IMG/VR virus record: IMGVR_UViG_3300020205_002811
Span: 1 to 20,044 of that record
DNA: 20,044 nt
DNA from: a virus
Reading direction: 5' to 3' (one strand)
In this document: one piece after another, positions 1 to 9,523 of the stretch
How positions within the stretch are numbered: the stretch's first letter is position 1
Layout of the letters: every line of letters starts with the position of its first letter
Program-made: the position numbers and the translations under genes
The notes under the pieces: model-generated
Seen by the model: the letters and a program-made list of their open reading frames with translations, nothing else
Databases searched by the model: none
What the model was told of the DNA's origin: nothing

Positions 1-2480
1 CCGCCCTCGCTGTCGTCAGAGTCGTCAATCCCAACCTCGTAGTTTAGATTAGAACTGCCGCGGCGCGCACCGGCGTCGCTTGGGATGCTGACTTTATCGC
101 TGTCGGCAGCGTATGAGAAATCTTCTTCTGGCTCATATCTACTCTTTGGGCGACGCTCACTAATCTCATTTGACTCTTGCCCTATTTCAGTATCTAGTTC
201 CGGTTCTAGATTCTTTGGCGCAATCCATTTTTCTGAAGATATTGACGCACTCTGGGGCGGCCTATCGACTCCGTCTTCAGTGAAAGCCCTTAACTTATCT
301 TTAGTGGACTTTGTTGAGGGCGGCTTCGGTGCAATAGATCCCACTGGTGCGTTTTTAGCATTGTACTCGTGCGAGGGGGTTGCCATGTGATCTTTAATAT
401 CTTTGTCTGCTTGAGCAAGATCACCTGTAAGTTTCCTGTGTACAGGGCTGCCTTTAATAGAATTTTGCAGTTTATTTGATATTTCATTTTTTTTACTATT
501 TAAACTGTTTAACTTATCCAAATGGGGATTTGACACTAGAGACTTGTTTAATTGATTTTTTAATTCTAATAGTTTAAAAATATTATATTGCATCGCATCG
601 TGGGATTTATTATTCTTACTTAGTGCGATTTCTTTTATAAATCTTTTTATAAGATCTATTTTATTTTTTTTATTGCTATTTGAAGCTGATGTTGATTTAG
701 CCCTTAAAGACTTAGCAAGTTTTCTAGTTAGATTTTCGTGCAACTTAATGGCTTCTTCTTGGTTTGCTATTTCTTGCATTTTTTTATTTATTCCAGGAGA
801 GAACTCATTAACTATCTGACTGTGGTTTGTTAAAAATTCTCGCTGCTCTTCGTCCGATAGAGCCTTATCTCCATATTTTGCTACAAGAGCATTAAGAGCT
901 TTTTCTTGTCTTTCTGTCATCTTACCGTGTTCATCTCTCAACTTTTCTAATGTGCGATTAAGATTCAACTGCTGCGTTTCTCGCTCATTTTGAGCAACTT
1001 TTTTGTTTCGCTCTGTCTCAATATTGCGAGGCGAAATATTATCTTGTTCCGCCAATAAGTCTCGCTGTTTACTAGCCGATCTTGTTGCTTCAAGATTTTT
1101 TATATTTTGTTCTCTTTTTATGGCCTCATTGCGCTCTTGACTAGTCGGCAGCAGGACTTGTCTTCCCATACGACCAGCCGATTTGTCAACTTGCGGCTGT
1201 ACAGGTATCATTTCGTACTCTTTAGTTTCACGATTTAATACCGGTTTGATGCCCTCAGCGTCGGTGCGATATCCGGTACGCGAATCTTCGCGACTAAGCA
1301 TAGCGCCTGTGACAGCGCCTGCCTCAGAAATTCGCCGCTGATCCTCATTTGGATTTGGTGAAACACTACCCCAGGTACTGCGAACCTTTTCCGCCTCACG
1401 ATCAGCAATAGACTTGTAGTGTTGCAGTTCTCGAGGTGAAGGCTGAGGAAGACTTTTTACTGCGTTATTGTGATTTTGCAACTCAGTATCCCAATCATAT
1501 CCTCGCTTAGATATTTCATCTCTTGCATTTGCTTTTGCAGATCTCTCGCGATCACCTAAAACAGATATTTTGCTTCTTACGGCCTCAATTGCGTTATTGA
1601 TTTCTTGAATATTTTTTGGGTTTTGGTTTTGCTCTAATTTTCTCTGTAGAGAAGACTCTTCGTCCTGTAGAGATGTACGCATGGGTGCAAACCTAACGCC
1701 CACCTCATTGATTAAGTTTTTACCAGCGCTGGATCTCAAAAAATCAGACTTGTTACTCCAAGCGTCTTTTTGATGTTTCACTTCTTGTAACACACTTTTA
1801 AGAACACTATCCTTGTGATCTCCGTCCGGTAGTGAATCATATGCGGTTCTAAGTGCGTTTAATTTTTGCTCTGATAATTCACCGACCTTGGCGTGCATTG
1901 GCTGTATGTGCTTATCATAAAGATGTTTGTGGTCTTTAGGACTAATTGACTTTAAAGAATTTAATGATTCGTCAATGTGTCCATATAGTTTATTTCTAAG
2001 GTCATTAATATTCTTGTGTGCGTCGTTAATCTTTTCAAACATGCCTGCCGCATCATTTGGCGATGTGCTTGAATGATGTTTTAAATCTTTTAAGTGACTA
2101 TCTATTGCTCTTTTGTTTGCAAGAGTGGCACTGGTTTTCGTGTTTGCTATTTCGGGTTCTGAAGAACCTAATCGATGATCTTCGGCCTGCCTATGCATAA
2201 GCTCAATATGATGCCATGGAGCAACATCAAGCATCTTTTCGGGCTTAGGCTCATTTGGTTTTTCATACAGTGGATGATCAGGTGTGTATTCTTGAATACC
2301 ACCTTGTTTATTGTAATACTGATTAGTTCCAAGTCTTTTAATTTTAGACACTTCTGGTTTACTAGGTTTGCTGCTTGAAGCACTCTCAAGTGCTTCTTTG
2401 TTGCTTTGTTTAAAATTATTATTTTTTAAAAGCTTTCTTGTTTTAGCCAAGAAGCGATTGACAACATCGTACTCTTTCAT
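1..2480 (-). CDS. Large hydrophilic protein of unknown function, partial (C-terminus beyond left edge)
   Basis: I translated the minus strand by hand from the ATG at 2480. The frame stays open through 826 codons to the left edge, so the gene is truncated by the window. I do not recognise the family. The N-terminus is basic (MKEYDVVNRF, then KTRKLLK). A short aromatic/glycine patch, QYYNKQGGIQEY, lies near residue 60. Most of the rest is rich in Lys, Glu, Gln, Asn and Ser and looks like helical or coiled-coil segments with charged linkers. The visible end turns Pro/Ser/Asp-rich (ERRPKSRYEPEEDFSYAADSD). I saw no cysteine codon and no membrane segment. It lies downstream of the capsid gene and the homing endonuclease. 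An AAAGG lies 12 nt before the ATG, a weak ribosome site, with a TATAAT element upstream. An internal head, ejection or scaffold-like role is only a guess from composition and position. Confidence 0.82.
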   Translation of the reverse strand, partial: MKEYDVVNRFLAKTRKLLKNNNFKQSNKEALESASSSKPSKPEVSKIKRLGTNQYYNKQGGIQEYTPDHPLYEKPNEPKPEKMLDVAPWHHIELMHRQAEDHRLGSSEPEIANTKTSATLANKRAIDSHLKDLKHHSSTSPNDAAGMFEKINDAHKNINDLRNKLYGHIDESLNSLKSISPKDHKHLYDKHIQPMHAKVGELSEQKLNALRTAYDSLPDGDHKDSVLKSVLQEVKHQKDAWSNKSDFLRSSAGKNLINEVGVRFAPMRTSLQDEESSLQRKLEQNQNPKNIQEINNAIEAVRSKISVLGDRERSAKANARDEISKRGYDWDTELQNHNNAVKSLPQPSPRELQHYKSIADREAEKVRSTWGSVSPNPNEDQRRISEAGAVTGAMLSREDSRTGYRTDAEGIKPVLNRETKEYEMIPVQPQVDKSAGRMGRQVLLPTSQERNEAIKREQNIKNLEATRSASKQRDLLAEQDNISPRNIETERNKKVAQNERETQQLNLNRTLEKLRDEHGKMTERQEKALNALVAKYGDKALSDEEQREFLTNHSQIVNEFSPGINKKMQEIANQEEAIKLHENLTRKLAKSLRAKSTSASNSNKKNKIDLIKRFIKEIALSKNNKSHDAMQYNIFKLLELKNQLNKSLVSNPHLDKLNSLNSKKNEISNKLQNSIKGSPVHRKLTGDLAQADKDIKDHMATPSHEYNAKNAPVGSIAPKPPSTKSTKDKLRAFTEDGVDRPPQSASISSEKWIAPKNLEPELDTEIGQESNEISERRPKSRYEPEEDFSYAADSDKVSIPSDAGARRGSSNLNYEVGIDDSDDSEG

Positions 2481-2518
2481 AGCAGGGTGCAACCTTTATG
2501 CATGTACATTTAATATAA

Positions 2519-2545: not shown

Positions 2546-3778
2546 TTAGGCGAGCTTTTGCTTCTCATATATGCCTATAAGATACTCTAAAACTTGTAAA
2601 GAGTTGCCACTAAAAATACCATATTTTTTAGTTCTAGCGTCTATTGCTCGCATGCGGTTTATGGCAGACTCTGTAAAAGTGCCGCCTCTCTGAGAAAGCC
2701 TTGATCTAATTGTTGCCTCATCTTCTATTATGAAAATTGGTCTTATGTCAAATTGATGTGAATTTCGTTTTATAAACGTAGAGATGTTGATAGAGGGGTC
2801 ATATAGTGAATGCTTGCCGGTGTTGTTTTCTATTATGCATCTTAGGTGCTCTTTTTTAGGAACCTCATCATAGGAGACATAGTTAAACATATTAGTTAAT
2901 TGCCTGCAAACCCAAGACTTGCCAACCCCAGACACGCCGCAAACCATGTATACTGTTGGTTTTACATCTGATAAGCAGTCAACATACCTGAAAGATCTTC
3001 CGTTAGATATGGACCGATACTCGCCCTTTAACTGTTTAACTACTGAGGAGGCAAAAACTGCATTCATCTCAGCTGCTTGTTTTACAGATTCGTACATTAC
3101 ACCCATGTCATCTATTATTTTTCTCTGCCTCTTTTTGTAGAAATCACTCATCTTCTGTCTTACTTCTGGCTTGCTAAGTGCTTCTTTTACTTTACTACCT
3201 ATAAGCTGCTTGTGCTCTTCAGTGTTATTTTTTTGAGCGCGCCTAGATGCGGCCTTACGATTTAACACACTAGACCAGTATTGAGATCTCGCCTTGGATA
3301 TCTTTTCAGAATACTTCTTGTCCTGCCACAGCGCCTTAGATGTTTTAGACTTTCTATCTCGCAGTTCTTTTGACTTCCATCGCTCTATATGAGCCTTAGA
3401 CATGACGTCCCTTGTTGAATCTGATATCTCGGATCCAATTTTAGCATTTGACATCTTCTGCAGCACGGCATCATTAAACTTAAATCCTCCGCTACCTCCG
3501 GATGTTAGATTGTATCCGTTTGGCAGTTGACAATTAAATTCAGATATATAGTGCCTTTCTAATGTGTCTAGCTCTTGCTGTGTTGCGGCGGTTGCTAAAA
3601 CCATAAAACTGAAATTATGTTTTCCATATTTTTGAATGGCAAGACTTATAGGAGTCTGATTTGTTGCACTCTTTCTTAACCTGCAATGAGATGACCATCT
3701 ACGAGATGGACTATTAGATGTAGTCTGCCCAACGTAACACTTACCATTAGTGTTGTTTTTAATTAGATAAACTATCAT
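2546..3778 (-). CDS. Free-standing GIY-YIG homing endonuclease fused to a P-loop kinase-like domain (410 aa)
   Basis: Residues 1-95 form a GIY-YIG nuclease domain: VYL (Y4), YVG (Y15), an arginine pair at 26-27, a catalytic-type Glu near 74, and the NGYNLTSGG motif. Residues ~100-220 hold repeated NUMOD3-like helices (SNAKIG, SKAHIERW, SKTSKALW, SKARSQYW). Residues ~220-265 look like a NUMOD1-type DNA-binding segment (MYESVKQAAE, GRSFRYVD). Residues 274-410 form a separate domain with a Walker A (GVSGVGKS, 281-288), YVSYDE and an Arg-rich lid-like stretch (RSRLSQRGG), resembling polynucleotide/NMP kinases. I chose the ATG at 3778, not 3823, because GAGGTG sits just upstream and GIY-YIG proteins usually begin at this motif. 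The gene lies between two apparently intact genes, behind a terminator, so it is free-standing rather than intronic. Such enzymes spread by cutting alleles that lack them. What the kinase-like domain does is unknown. Confidence 0.88.
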   Translation of the reverse strand: MIVYLIKNNTNGKCYVGQTTSNSPSRRWSSHCRLRKSATNQTPISLAIQKYGKHNFSFMVLATAATQQELDTLERHYISEFNCQLPNGYNLTSGGSGGFKFNDAVLQKMSNAKIGSEISDSTRDVMSKAHIERWKSKELRDRKSKTSKALWQDKKYSEKISKARSQYWSSVLNRKAASRRAQKNNTEEHKQLIGSKVKEALSKPEVRQKMSDFYKKRQRKIIDDMGVMYESVKQAAEMNAVFASSVVKQLKGEYRSISNGRSFRYVDCLSDVKPTVYMVCGVSGVGKSWVCRQLTNMFNYVSYDEVPKKEHLRCIIENNTGKHSLYDPSINISTFIKRNSHQFDIRPIFIIEDEATIRSRLSQRGGTFTESAINRMRAIDARTKKYGIFSGNSLQVLEYLIGIYEKQKLA

Positions 3779-3835: not shown

Positions 3836-3864
3836 AAAAACGATCTACTGTTTCCAGTAGATCG
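3836..3864 (-). terminator. Rho-independent terminator after the major capsid gene
   Basis: Read on the minus strand, a perfect 10-bp stem (CGATCTACTG / CAGTAGATCG) closes a GAAA tetraloop and is followed at once by TTTTTATATT. A GNRA loop, a perfect stem and a U-tract make this a textbook intrinsic terminator. It lies 32 nt after the capsid stop codon and before the homing endonuclease. Confidence 0.9.
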
Positions 3865-3895
3865 CATTTATTTTATCAACAAAATTAATTACTTA

Positions 3896-5356
3896 TTATT
3901 TGCCGACGTTGCGCATTACGCAGTTGAAACGTGGTGCGAAAACAAACAATGAACCGTACATCAAAAGTAAGAACTCCAAAGCCGTTGTAACTACAGCGAG
4001 ATTCATCTTCGATAGTGGTGCTAGCTGTTTAAACTTCATTGTCTCTGCACCTAGATCTAACAAGAATGCTTCGCCAAGACCTGGACGCTTTTTACCAGCA
4101 TCGCGAATCTGTGCTAGACCCAAACGATAATTGCCAATAAACTGAGATCTTGATGCCGCTGCGCCAGAAGCAGAGCGATACAACTTGATGTGTTTAACAT
4201 CAGCAGGAATCGATCCAGTTATTGCAATATCTACTGTGTTATTTGGGCTTGAAACCGTTACAGCAGATGTTGTAAGCACTGGAGCTGACTCGCCAAAATC
4301 GTTTACAAGCGTAAGTGCATAGTGATATACACCTGGGCTCATTTCATTACCAGCAGCACTAGAAGCCGTACCAGCAATAGATAATCCAGCAACAGATGGT
4401 GCCTTTGCATTAACTGCAGCAGAGCGAACTTGCGCGCGTGGGCGTAGGAAAAGGTTGGGCTTTAGATCGATTGGGCCAGCTGTTGTTGTTATTTTAGAAA
4501 CGTCATAACCAACAGTTTGACCAGAAAGACCTGGCTCTGAGCGGAATTGTGGATAGAATTGACGAACAAACGTGGACACTGCTAGCGGCTCTGCGTGTAG
4601 TTGGGTTGGCGCGCCAAAGTTTTCTAGTGCTTTTACAGCTAGATCTTCGATATCATCTTGTGCAAATGATGCACCAGCAAGATCTTTAGTTATTGAGTTG
4701 GATTCTGCACCCCAGCCTTCGAAATCTTTAGATATGAATTGGCTGTCTGTGTCGCCTTTTAATAACTGCTGTAGAAGACCGCTCATCGCGATAGAACCTG
4801 GAGGAAGATCAGAGTTTGATCCTGTTTGAGCACCAAGAGAGTCAGTAAAGTGTGCATGGCCCCAGTATAGTTCGCGCTCAACGTGCTTAAGAAGATCCAT
4901 AGTTCCTTCTTTAGCTTGCTGTGCAACAACATCTCCAACAGAAGTTCTTACCAGAGTCATCTGGTGAGACACTTTCCTGCGTTTAGAGAAGAACGCGATT
5001 CTTTGACCATCACGTATGTATGTTGAATCTTCTTCTTGACCAGATCCACCTTCACCGATATATGGTGAGCTATCTGAACCATAGCCAACCAAGCGGTTGT
5101 ATTGTTCAAACAGACTGTAGGCTTTATCTACTGTCAAGCTTGGCCATAGTTTTAGGTTTTTCATATCAAATGTAACTACTTTTAAAGTAGACTCAAGTGA
5201 CTCAACCTGGATAACACCACCTTGGGTTAGATCTGTAGGGCGACCGGCATAACCGTAACCTGCAGATAGAGCCTTATTAAGGGCCTCAACCTCATTTTGG
5301 GAGACTAGGCCCTGCTCCAGCCCCTGCATAATGGAATTCATTGCATCGTGAAACAT
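3896..5356 (-). CDS. Major capsid protein, SPO1/Herelleviridae-like HK97 fold (486 aa)
   Basis: This is the main shell subunit of the phage head. The core (residues ~57-315) carries the hallmark HQMTLVRTSVGD (131-142), and the C-terminus (LAPLSKM, LMYGSLFVFAPRFN) resembles SPO1-type capsid proteins. Residues ~318-395 form a beta-rich Ig/FN3-like insertion (YHYALTLVNDFGESAP, then HIKLYRS), also seen in that family. The first ~50 residues look like a propeptide: helix 5-30, then a segment (K28-L54) that closely matches the C-terminal part of the prohead protease encoded at 6659-7519. Cleavage near here during maturation is inferred. The ATG at 5356 is preceded by AAGGAG at good spacing, 12 nt after the upstream scaffold-like gene. 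A strong terminator follows the gene. Length fits the family. Confidence 0.9.
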   Translation of the reverse strand: MFHDAMNSIMQGLEQGLVSQNEVEALNKALSAGYGYAGRPTDLTQGGVIQVESLESTLKVVTFDMKNLKLWPSLTVDKAYSLFEQYNRLVGYGSDSSPYIGEGGSGQEEDSTYIRDGQRIAFFSKRRKVSHQMTLVRTSVGDVVAQQAKEGTMDLLKHVERELYWGHAHFTDSLGAQTGSNSDLPPGSIAMSGLLQQLLKGDTDSQFISKDFEGWGAESNSITKDLAGASFAQDDIEDLAVKALENFGAPTQLHAEPLAVSTFVRQFYPQFRSEPGLSGQTVGYDVSKITTTAGPIDLKPNLFLRPRAQVRSAAVNAKAPSVAGLSIAGTASSAAGNEMSPGVYHYALTLVNDFGESAPVLTTSAVTVSSPNNTVDIAITGSIPADVKHIKLYRSASGAAASRSQFIGNYRLGLAQIRDAGKKRPGLGEAFLLDLGAETMKFKQLAPLSKMNLAVVTTALEFLLLMYGSLFVFAPRFNCVMRNVGK

Positions 5357-5368
5357 TAATCTATCTCC

Positions 5369-6136
5369 TTACTTGATGCTATATTTATTTGCAATTTCTT
5401 GAAGATCACTCTGACCGCCAAGTTCGGCACGAAGAACGTCATCTGTAGAAATATCTCTACCAGATTTTTTAAGGCTAACTAGCTCTCCAAGGATTTTACT
5501 CTTGGATAGCGGCTCATAGTCTCCAGTGCTTTTTGCCAGCGGCTGAAAGTCTTTATAAGTTGTCCCTCTAGCGTAAACTGGCTGATCTGCGATACGATTA
5601 ATCGCATCAGTCATTTCTGCTATTTTGGCCTTAAATGTTTTTTCTAACTTTTGAATCTTAGAATCAGTTTTAGACTTTTTCATTTCAGAAGAGGACGTTC
5701 CCATCTTCTTATATAAAGAATCTCTCTTTTTTTCTGCTTTCTTTCGGCTTTCTTTTGCCTTATTGTAAGCATCTTCAGCCTTGGCGCATGCCATTTCAGC
5801 TTTTTTTATTTTTTCTTCTTTATTGCCTTCGTCTTCATCTTCATCTTCGTCTTCATCTTCATCGTCTTCGTCTTCGTCGTCAGACTTCTCTGCTTTATCT
5901 TCGTCTTCATCATCTTCGTCTTCGTCGTCAGACTTCTCTGTTTTGTCTTCATCTTCATCGACTTCATCTTCGTCTTCGTCGACTTTTTCTTCTTTTTTCT
6001 TCATCTTCATGCTTCCGTTAGCATCGGATCCCATGTCGATCTCTTCTGCATCAAAACGGCTTTTACGAAGATCTTCAAGTTCCTCTAAAGTCTCATCGAT
6101 GAGCTCAGTAAGGCTTTTTGCAAGATTAACGTCCAT
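5369..6136 (-). CDS. Highly acidic scaffold-like protein (255 aa)
   Basis: This gene lies directly before the major capsid gene, the usual place for a head scaffold or core protein. Residues 1-35 form an acidic helix (LTELIDETLEELEDL). Residues ~50-105 are an almost pure Asp/Glu tract containing two copies of a 16-residue unit (around EKSDDEDEDDE). Residues ~108-185 are a Lys/Ala/Glu-rich, probably coiled-coil region (KKAEMACAKAED, IQKLEKTFKAKIAEM). The C-terminal ~60 residues (LSKSKILGELVSLKKSG, then LQEIANKYSIK) look like a compact helical domain, in scaffolds often the capsid-binding part. GGAG lies before the ATG. The scaffold role rests on position, charge and coiled coil; I recognise no specific family. 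It could instead be an acidic internal head protein. Confidence 0.8.
   Translation of the reverse strand: MDVNLAKSLTELIDETLEELEDLRKSRFDAEEIDMGSDANGSMKMKKKEEKVDEDEDEVDEDEDKTEKSDDEDEDDEDEDKAEKSDDEDEDDEDEDEDEDEDEGNKEEKIKKAEMACAKAEDAYNKAKESRKKAEKKRDSLYKKMGTSSSEMKKSKTDSKIQKLEKTFKAKIAEMTDAINRIADQPVYARGTTYKDFQPLAKSTGDYEPLSKSKILGELVSLKKSGRDISTDDVLRAELGGQSDLQEIANKYSIK
5865..5960 (-). repeat. Two direct 48-bp tandem repeats coding for acidic 16-aa units
   Basis: Copies at 5865-5912 and 5913-5960 match at 44 of 48 positions by eye. Each encodes a unit around EKSDDEDEDDE. The flanks are further GAT/GAA-type runs, so the tract probably expands and contracts by replication slippage while keeping frame. 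Confidence 0.85.
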
Positions 6137-8601: not shown

Positions 8602-9465
8602 CTAAAATTTTTGTTTATTATTTTTTTCTTTAATTCTGCTTATGAATGTTTTTAAAACCAATACGTCTTCTTTTGTAAAGAATGTGTCGCCCTTATTAGC
8701 TTGTTGTGGTTGAGCGCCTAAAAGCACACCCAATTCGGAGTTTAAAAATGTTCTTATTTTATCTTCTATAGAGTCGAACTCTGTTCCCTTCTTTTTTACT
8801 ATTCTAGATGATAAAATCTCATTTATGGCGTTTGCATATGCCAGCTTTATTTGCTCTGGCGATTGCTGTATTGTCGCTGTATTTTTGCTATTTAAGCTTT
8901 TAAGATGCTGAATGCTTTCTCGTTTTATAACATTTACAGTTGCCTGATCATCTTGGCGATCACTTAATTTTATTTCTTTTTCTGGATTGTCCAATATCAG
9001 ATCCTGTTTTGTCATCTGTAGAAACCCATACTTGTCTGCCATAGAGTAATAAAGCTGTCTTGCTTGTTTAAATTGATTAAGCGTTAATGGCTCTTTATTA
9101 TCTAGACATCTTTGCCAATGGGCAACCTCATTTGGGTCGTGCATTAATATTCTTGTTACTGCGTTTTGGTCTTCAATTTCTTGAATTATTTCAAAGTCTT
9201 CTTCATTTAATAGTGCGTTTCTGCCGTAAATAAGAGGCCATATTTTTTCACCATAGTGAGATCTATCAAATACAACATCTCGGCCAGATTTAGAAACTAG
9301 AAGCTCTATAATGTCTTCTACGTATGATGGGCCAGCGTATCCAGATGTGTAATATTTTTTATCTGGTGCAGAAAAATGAACGACCTCATACCCTTGATTT
9401 GCGTATAGTTTTGCTAAAGTAGTTTTAGCAGAGCGATCTAATCCTTCTATAATTATCCACGACAT
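8602..9465 (-). CDS. Thymidylate-kinase-like P-loop protein with C-terminal extension (287 aa)
   Basis: The N-terminal ~165 residues form a P-loop nucleoside monophosphate kinase fold closest in style to thymidylate kinase: Walker A EGLDRSAKTT (7-16), DRSH (67-70, the DR(Y/S) position), and a helical segment RCLDNKEPLTLNQFKQAR with LYYSMADKYGF like the lid region. It would phosphorylate dTMP or another nucleotide, but the substrate cannot be fixed from sequence. Residues ~170-287 are an extra domain, Lys- and Gln-rich and largely helical, containing KGTEFDSIEDKIR (226-238). KGTEFD also occurs at the N-terminus of the prohead protease. I chose the ATG at 9465 because AAGGAGA lies 8 nt upstream and the P-loop begins at once; the ATG at 9501 adds 12 residues without support. 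Its place between portal and protease is unusual for a metabolic enzyme. Confidence 0.85.
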   Translation of the reverse strand: MSWIIIEGLDRSAKTTLAKLYANQGYEVVHFSAPDKKYYTSGYAGPSYVEDIIELLVSKSGRDVVFDRSHYGEKIWPLIYGRNALLNEEDFEIIQEIEDQNAVTRILMHDPNEVAHWQRCLDNKEPLTLNQFKQARQLYYSMADKYGFLQMTKQDLILDNPEKEIKLSDRQDDQATVNVIKRESIQHLKSLNSKNTATIQQSPEQIKLAYANAINEILSSRIVKKKGTEFDSIEDKIRTFLNSELGVLLGAQPQQANKGDTFFTKEDVLVLKTFISRIKEKNNKQKF

Positions 9466-9473
9466 CGAATTGA

Positions 9474-9480
9474 TCTCCTT
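9474..9480 (-). promoter_or_regulatory. Ribosome binding site that sets the kinase start
   Basis: AAGGAGA on the minus strand, 8 nt before ATG 9465. It rules against the upstream in-frame ATG at 9501. A GTATAAAAATA element (core 9493-9498) lies just upstream and may be a promoter. Confidence 0.7.
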
Positions 9481-9492
9481 CATTTCTTTATT

Positions 9493-9498
9493 TTTATA
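9493..9498 (-). promoter_or_regulatory. Possible promoter -10 element upstream of the kinase
   Basis: On the minus strand: TTGTATAAAAATA in the 58-nt spacer between portal and kinase. It shares the GTATA core with other intergenic elements in this window. The spacer is AT-only around it, so chance occurrence is possible. Confidence 0.3.
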
Positions 9499-9523
9499 CA
9501 AAAGATCAAAAAATATTTAGTAT

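Follow-up and report, generated by a model that had tools for sequence, protein, structure and literature searches.

A P-loop kinase-fold module joined to homing endonucleases of several nuclease folds in uncultured phages

The stretch of DNA analyzed here (the window, 20,044 nucleotides, positions 1 to 20,044 of IMG/VR record IMGVR_UViG_3300020205_002811) is a 20-kb piece of the genome of an uncultured tailed phage, and it contains a gene in which a free-standing GIY-YIG homing endonuclease is joined to a P-loop kinase-fold module (Table 1). Computational comparison with related contigs and records of uncultured phages (labeled L plus a number below) gives the anatomy of this gene and shows that its module belongs to a family that is swapped among endonucleases, often at one shared genomic site, is under purifying selection, and has a conserved kinase active site. 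We see about an even chance that this is an undescribed family, confined to phage homing endonucleases and traded across unrelated folds, whose members act as DNA-tethered phosphotransferases that help the endonuclease gene to spread or persist. Both components, a homing endonuclease of the free-standing type and a kinase fold with a P-loop, are already known; relative to the open-access papers searched, what is new is that they are combined, that the module is restricted to homing endonucleases, and that unrelated nuclease folds trade it. The usual view of a homing endonuclease is a cutter with a DNA-binding tail and a metal ion as its sole requirement, and a selected kinase-fold module found on at least four nuclease folds and at both protein ends suggests a missed NTP-dependent step in homing or in the selfish life of these genes.

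The window's terminase is nearest to that of Myxococcus phage Mx1, and its capsid protein is distantly SPO1-like (∼32% identity). The fusion gene is flanked by the hairpin that follows the major capsid gene on one side and by a large ORF on the other; this downstream ORF (3-2492, minus strand, ∼830 residues) has no PHROG match and is found in none of the 80 capsid loci discussed below. The GIY-YIG domain lies well over its Pfam cut-off (PF01541, 44 vs. 22.6 bits), and alignment to I-TevI (1mk0/1ln0) shows that equivalents of Tyr/YVG, Arg27, Glu75, and Asn90 are all kept, which upholds an earlier note's reading, made from the letters alone, of an intact nuclease. TIGR01453, "group I intron endonuclease," also exceeds its cut-off (76.4 vs. 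56.05, residues 3-253), and the phrog_314 match extends to residue 273. An intron-encoded endonuclease was considered and rejected: there is no Rfam match in the window, the capsid gene is intact upstream, and a separate ORF lies downstream. The NUMOD-type DNA-binding repeats of the earlier note are plausible from sequence, with a sibling (L034) that matches I-HmuI_NUMOD-like (PF22083), but the window protein itself reaches no Pfam NUMOD model in a Pfam scan. The earlier note left the strand of the gene unstated; it is the minus strand. PADLOC returned mainly homing-endonuclease models on this material, with weak matches to UzuA and VakA.

Table 1 Features of the fusion gene and its upstream neighbor in the window
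Feature	Position (bp)	Strand	Remarks
Fusion gene: free-standing GIY-YIG homing endonuclease + P-loop kinase-fold module	2546..3778	-	410 aa; ATG at 3778, stop ends at 2546
GIY-YIG catalytic domain, residues 2-89	3512..3775	-	PF01541 E 2.8e-11; I-TevI 1mk0/1ln0 alignment
Basic repeat-rich linker + NUMOD-like DNA-binding region, residues 95-266	2981..3496	-	phrog_314, TIGR01453 matches
P-loop kinase-fold module, residues 270-410	2549..2971	-	Family alignments, AF2 model, fold matches
Walker A GVSGVGKS, residues 281-288	2915..2938	-	K287 in 29/30, S/T288 in 30/30 modules
Asp304, end of strand 2, where such kinases have their general base or substrate-binding Asp	2867..2869	-	Invariant, 30/30 modules
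Asp327, Walker-B-like (LYD)	2798..2800	-	27/30 modules
Arg364, lid arginine (RGG)	2687..2689	-	Invariant, 30/30 modules
Intrinsic-terminator-like hairpin, gap between capsid and endonuclease genes	3840..3865	-	11-pair stem + T-run
Major capsid protein gene, insertion-site landmark	3896..5356	-	phrog_752 major head protein, E 3.7e-56; same neighbor in relatives

In its catalytic nuclease domain, repeat DNA-binding region, intergenic position, and patchy presence among relatives, the window gene resembles those of the T4 Seg proteins and I-TevI, and the T4 segD gene likewise directly follows that of the major capsid protein, in the interval between genes 23 and 24 (PMC2988022). It differs from them in its P-loop domain, which is mentioned neither in the T4 mobile-DNA review (PMC2988022) nor in the GIY-YIG superfamily survey; the earlier note's view that such a fusion is non-standard for GIY-YIG proteins gains support from this. 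Fusions of a homing endonuclease with a P-loop kinase are not described in the open-access literature searched, outside of which a description may exist.

The module carries the motifs GVSGVGKS (281-288), YVSYDE (300-305), and RSRLSQRGG (358-366), as the earlier note described in calling it a complete-looking P-loop domain. As an isolated domain it falls just under the cut-off of AAA_33 (25.5 vs. 27 bits). The guanylate kinase model PF00625 stays below its cut-off (12.9 vs. 25.2 bits). The cut-off of Zeta toxin PF06414 is not reached either; this profile touches only three relatives (best E 0.0048) and scores 19.8 bits against a cut-off of 22.3 with full-length L099. Relatives are 36-62% identical across the whole module, and an AlphaFold2 model of it built on a 13-sequence family alignment has a mean pLDDT of 93.4 (the whole protein folded as a single sequence gave a pLDDT of 38 and was of no use). 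Full-domain homologs and a confident model exclude a chance P-loop motif. Foldseek and VIA-align match the model clearly to P-loop kinases, the neighbors being GMP, UMP/CMP, and adenylate kinases, a RapZ-like N-domain, bacterial polynucleotide kinase, gluconate kinase, and dephospho-CoA kinase (VIA Z 11.3-12.9), and sequence profiles agree with the fold in indicating a distant relation to gluconate and guanylate kinases. As modeled, the module thus has the fold of the NMP-kinase/gluconate-kinase/polynucleotide-kinase group, with Walker A and kinase topology present and a short substrate-binding part (strands 2-3), and the kinase-like fold of the earlier note is borne out. The Z scores by class are 12.9 for GMPK, 12.6 for UMP/CMPK, and 12.0-12.1 for PNK, and since differences below 1 are ties, no substrate class is readable from the fold. 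The module shares with AAA_33-like P-loop kinases the Walker A, strand-2 Asp, Walker-B-like Asp, lid Arg, and fold, but differs from them in its length (∼130 residues), very short substrate region, characteristic GKSW Walker A, low identity (11-20%, under the AAA_33 cut-off), and occurrence on homing endonucleases only.

The family was assembled by running the degenerate pattern CGxSGxGKSW over viral contigs, followed by profile-guided scans and a search of 50 phage records. The pattern found the same domain on two HNH endonucleases and one EDxHD-like nuclease, and the HNH-borne module of L015 is 52% identical to that of the window. There are 38 distinct module ORFs, ∼34 once fragments and repeats are removed, all from uncultured phages. 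Every distinct ORF has homing-endonuclease-type sequence of at least 165 residues beside the module, and none of them is a stand-alone module, though it was the module, not the nuclease, for which the scans selected. The partners, as their sequences are classified, are of at least four unrelated nuclease kinds. Further GIY-YIG fusions were found when looked for, both with the module C-terminal as in the window (L021, L031, L024, L032, L034, L056, and L084) and in reversed order with the module first (L029, L030, and L035). HNH partners come in at least three architectures: NUMOD3-HNH (L010, L015, L100, and L116), HTH-HNH/endoVII-like (L047, L059, and L099), and other HNH (L101, L137, L142, L148, L161, L163, and L166). 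The remaining nucleases are HTH-PD-(D/E)XK, T7 endonuclease I-like (L023, L033, L066, L072, L075, and L102), and, in a single case, Vsr/EDxHD-like (L020). One ORF (from 1345, plus strand, of L141) has the module followed by NUMOD3-type DNA-binding repeats without a recognizable nuclease.

Beyond these phages, a search of cultured phages with the module returned no homolog, with PNK-like proteins of Campylobacter phages resembling it in Walker A only, and a scan of one genome per bacterial species gave no true member, only two unrelated P-loop kinases with the Walker A region alone in common. A scan with the C-terminal half of one module subgroup recovered known members only. Three candidates from the 50-record search (L144, L149, and L150) were rejected as unrelated P-loop proteins (helicases, RNA ligase/PNK).

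Modules and nucleases have exchanged partners repeatedly. The tree of 30 modules requires 16 architecture changes, 11 of them among the types found at the capsid site, and one six-module clade with 100/100 support holds three PD-(D/E)XK, one HTH-HNH, one NUMOD-HNH, and one GIY-YIG protein. The nucleases of L066 and L072 are 42% identical and their modules 68%, while for L072 and L075 the values are 59% and 47%; moreover, the L099 nuclease is 70-72% identical to those of L083 and L111, which have no module. The disagreement between the halves, together with this last comparison, indicates that gain, loss, and exchange of the module take place within short evolutionary times. It is optional and dispensable, since the same endonuclease also occurs without it at the same site, and the sequences suggest that it may be a helper that is passed around among selfish phage genes. 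L099 on the one hand and L083 and L111 on the other, closely similar endonucleases at the same site with and without the module, provide a ready natural comparison for its contribution. Domain shuffling between homing endonuclease genes is also seen in the ICP1 T5orf172/HNH chimeric genes (PMC10448857), but that text has no kinase, P-loop, AAA, or ATPase, and here the shared part is an enzyme-like domain.

Most C-terminal fusions share one site, directly after the major capsid gene; in every locally compared contig that carries such a fusion, the fusion gene lies next to the same capsid gene, with the exception of L020, which ends inside the gene. Among 80 capsid loci fetched by a scan with the capsid alignment, 21 have an endonuclease with the module, 12 an endonuclease only, and 7 end too early, and in the other 40 none was recognized, a class that may conceal endonuclease types missed by the profiles. 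After de-duplication (n = 65) the corresponding numbers are 17, 7, 5, and 36. At this site, related phages thus vary: some have a different homing endonuclease, some the same endonuclease lacking the module, and some none. In none of the 80 loci is the capsid gene followed by a lone module, which argues that the module is not a resident phage gene; with the same endonuclease also existing module-less, a resident phage kinase gene invaded by endonucleases was rejected.

We also note a further homing-endonuclease type with DUF7487 repeats at the post-capsid site (L043:5604-7145, L064:5540-6355, and L088:5563-7131). In both L043 and L088 an EDxHD-like nuclease comes after it, and then another C-terminal domain of ∼170 residues in the place of the P-loop module, possibly a second kind of accessory domain. 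The EDxHD-like genes of L043, L064, and L088 were detected solely by a separate Pfam scan.

The active site of the module is strongly conserved (Table 1). Walker A is retained in 29 of the 30 homologs, so the loss in close homologs that the earlier note would have taken as a sign of decay is not seen. The sole dead Walker A (GQTGASTSW) is in L047 (5550-6932), where an HTH-HNH endonuclease carries two tandem modules; the second, in the same frame and cut by the contig end, has GVSGAGKSW, and a dead copy followed by an intact one is to be expected if it matters that the module is intact. Comparison of related modules gives pN of 0.17-0.30 against pS of 0.62-0.96 (pS being near saturation). The module is under purifying selection, and pN far below pS together with the conserved active site excludes a decayed passenger. 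Three divergent modules are without D327, because of which some such members may only bind NTP.

The strand-2 Asp and the lid Arg are conserved no less strictly than Walker A, and for that reason the module probably binds NTP and transfers phosphate. Its action would be on DNA itself or at a site on DNA, since it comes without exception attached to a polypeptide that binds specific DNA sequences, even in L141, where no nuclease is recognizable. It may aid the spread or persistence of the endonuclease gene, for instance through DNA modification at the target or the break. Against a DNA-tethered phosphotransferase with this role stand the closely related endonucleases at the same site that lack the module, and homologous recombination between capsid gene and module, and not selection for the module as such, could be the source of the nuclease swaps at one site; against this, there are modules at other loci and at the opposite protein end. 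That the common module phosphorylates DNA itself (ends or modified bases) at or near the recognition site, as a site-directed kinase traded among at least four nuclease folds, we regard as unlikely.

On the doubtful side, too, is a nucleotide-binding switch without enzyme activity, in which NTP or dNTP binding gates DNA binding, oligomerization, or the timing of cleavage. It would fit the short strand 2-3 substrate-binding part, the loss of the Walker-B-like Asp in some divergent members, and the optional nature of the module, and sensor roles have been proposed for P-loop kinase domains in other DNA-targeting systems such as DndF (PMC10853773). DndF resembles the module in having a P-loop kinase-like domain with variable N-terminal domains in a DNA-targeting system, but it belongs to a host defense complex, its domain is much larger and has inserts, and no homing endonuclease is involved. 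The invariance of Asp304 and Arg364, the fold's catalytic positions, is more than binding alone requires.

Returning to enzymes, it seems improbable that the module is fitness cargo, a kinase for nucleotides or small molecules whose benefit to the phage, through nucleotide supply or host metabolism, would offset the cost of the selfish gene. The nearest folds are GMP, UMP, adenylate, and gluconate kinases, and purifying selection on the module would also be expected of such cargo; nevertheless, the module never stands alone and is always joined to DNA-binding regions, and at least two genomes of the lineage have separate nucleotide-kinase-like genes (adenylate-kinase-like in L152, thymidylate kinase in L067). 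The earlier note's suggestion of cargo is thus weakened in the sense of an unrelated passenger, the module never being found apart from homing-endonuclease sequence.

Among the possibilities in the same note was a 5'-end kinase working on the ends made by the nuclease itself; a 5'-polynucleotide kinase with break ends or nicks as its substrate is equally improbable. The model does match DNA-bound bacterial PNK (4mde, Z 12.0; 4gp6, Z 12.1), and Asp304 lies, by topology, at the place of the PNK general base; however, the fold score is tied with those of many other kinases, no better than for GMP, UMP, adenylate, or gluconate kinase, the HAD phosphatase partner domain is absent, and one lineage genome (L149) has a separate RNA-ligase/PNK-like protein. 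GIY-YIG, HNH, and PD-(D/E)XK nucleases already leave 5'-phosphates, and for this reason an end kinase is not favored. Finally, a neutral recombination handle devoid of enzymatic function, with shared 3' sequence letting unrelated nucleases swap at one site, would account for the shared site and swapped N-termini as the outcome of recombination between capsid gene and module, but it is very improbable given the conserved catalytic residues, pN far below pS, the modules that are N-terminal or at other loci, and the low DNA-level identity between modules, with which a homology handle would rarely work.

With regard to the modified bases mentioned above, a ThyA-like gene, mostly a divergent one and labeled thymidylate synthase in PHROGs, is present in 12 of the lineage's 13 large genomes. 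Phages with unusual bases often carry such a gene, and modified thymines are therefore conceivable in this lineage. The HMUDK_hel domain (PF18723) of 5-hmdU DNA kinase has no match in 13 phage records, and the control genomes are equally silent. In L152 the divergent ThyA-like gene (1465-2289) lies beside the adenylate-kinase-like gene, which is upstream at 924-1484.

Three other proteins of the window, all encoded on the minus strand, are worth recording. The capsid protein (3896-5356) has at residues ∼320-405 a variable insert that matches the internal-virion-protein profiles phrog_511 and phrog_17680; it is the region that differs most among relatives and is perhaps an Ig-like surface domain. 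The protein in the scaffold position (5369-6136) has a long Asp/Glu run (DEDEDE) whose length varies in relatives. The thymidylate-kinase-like protein at 8602-9501 (phrog_761, E 5e-5) has an unusual Walker A, EGLDRSAKTT.
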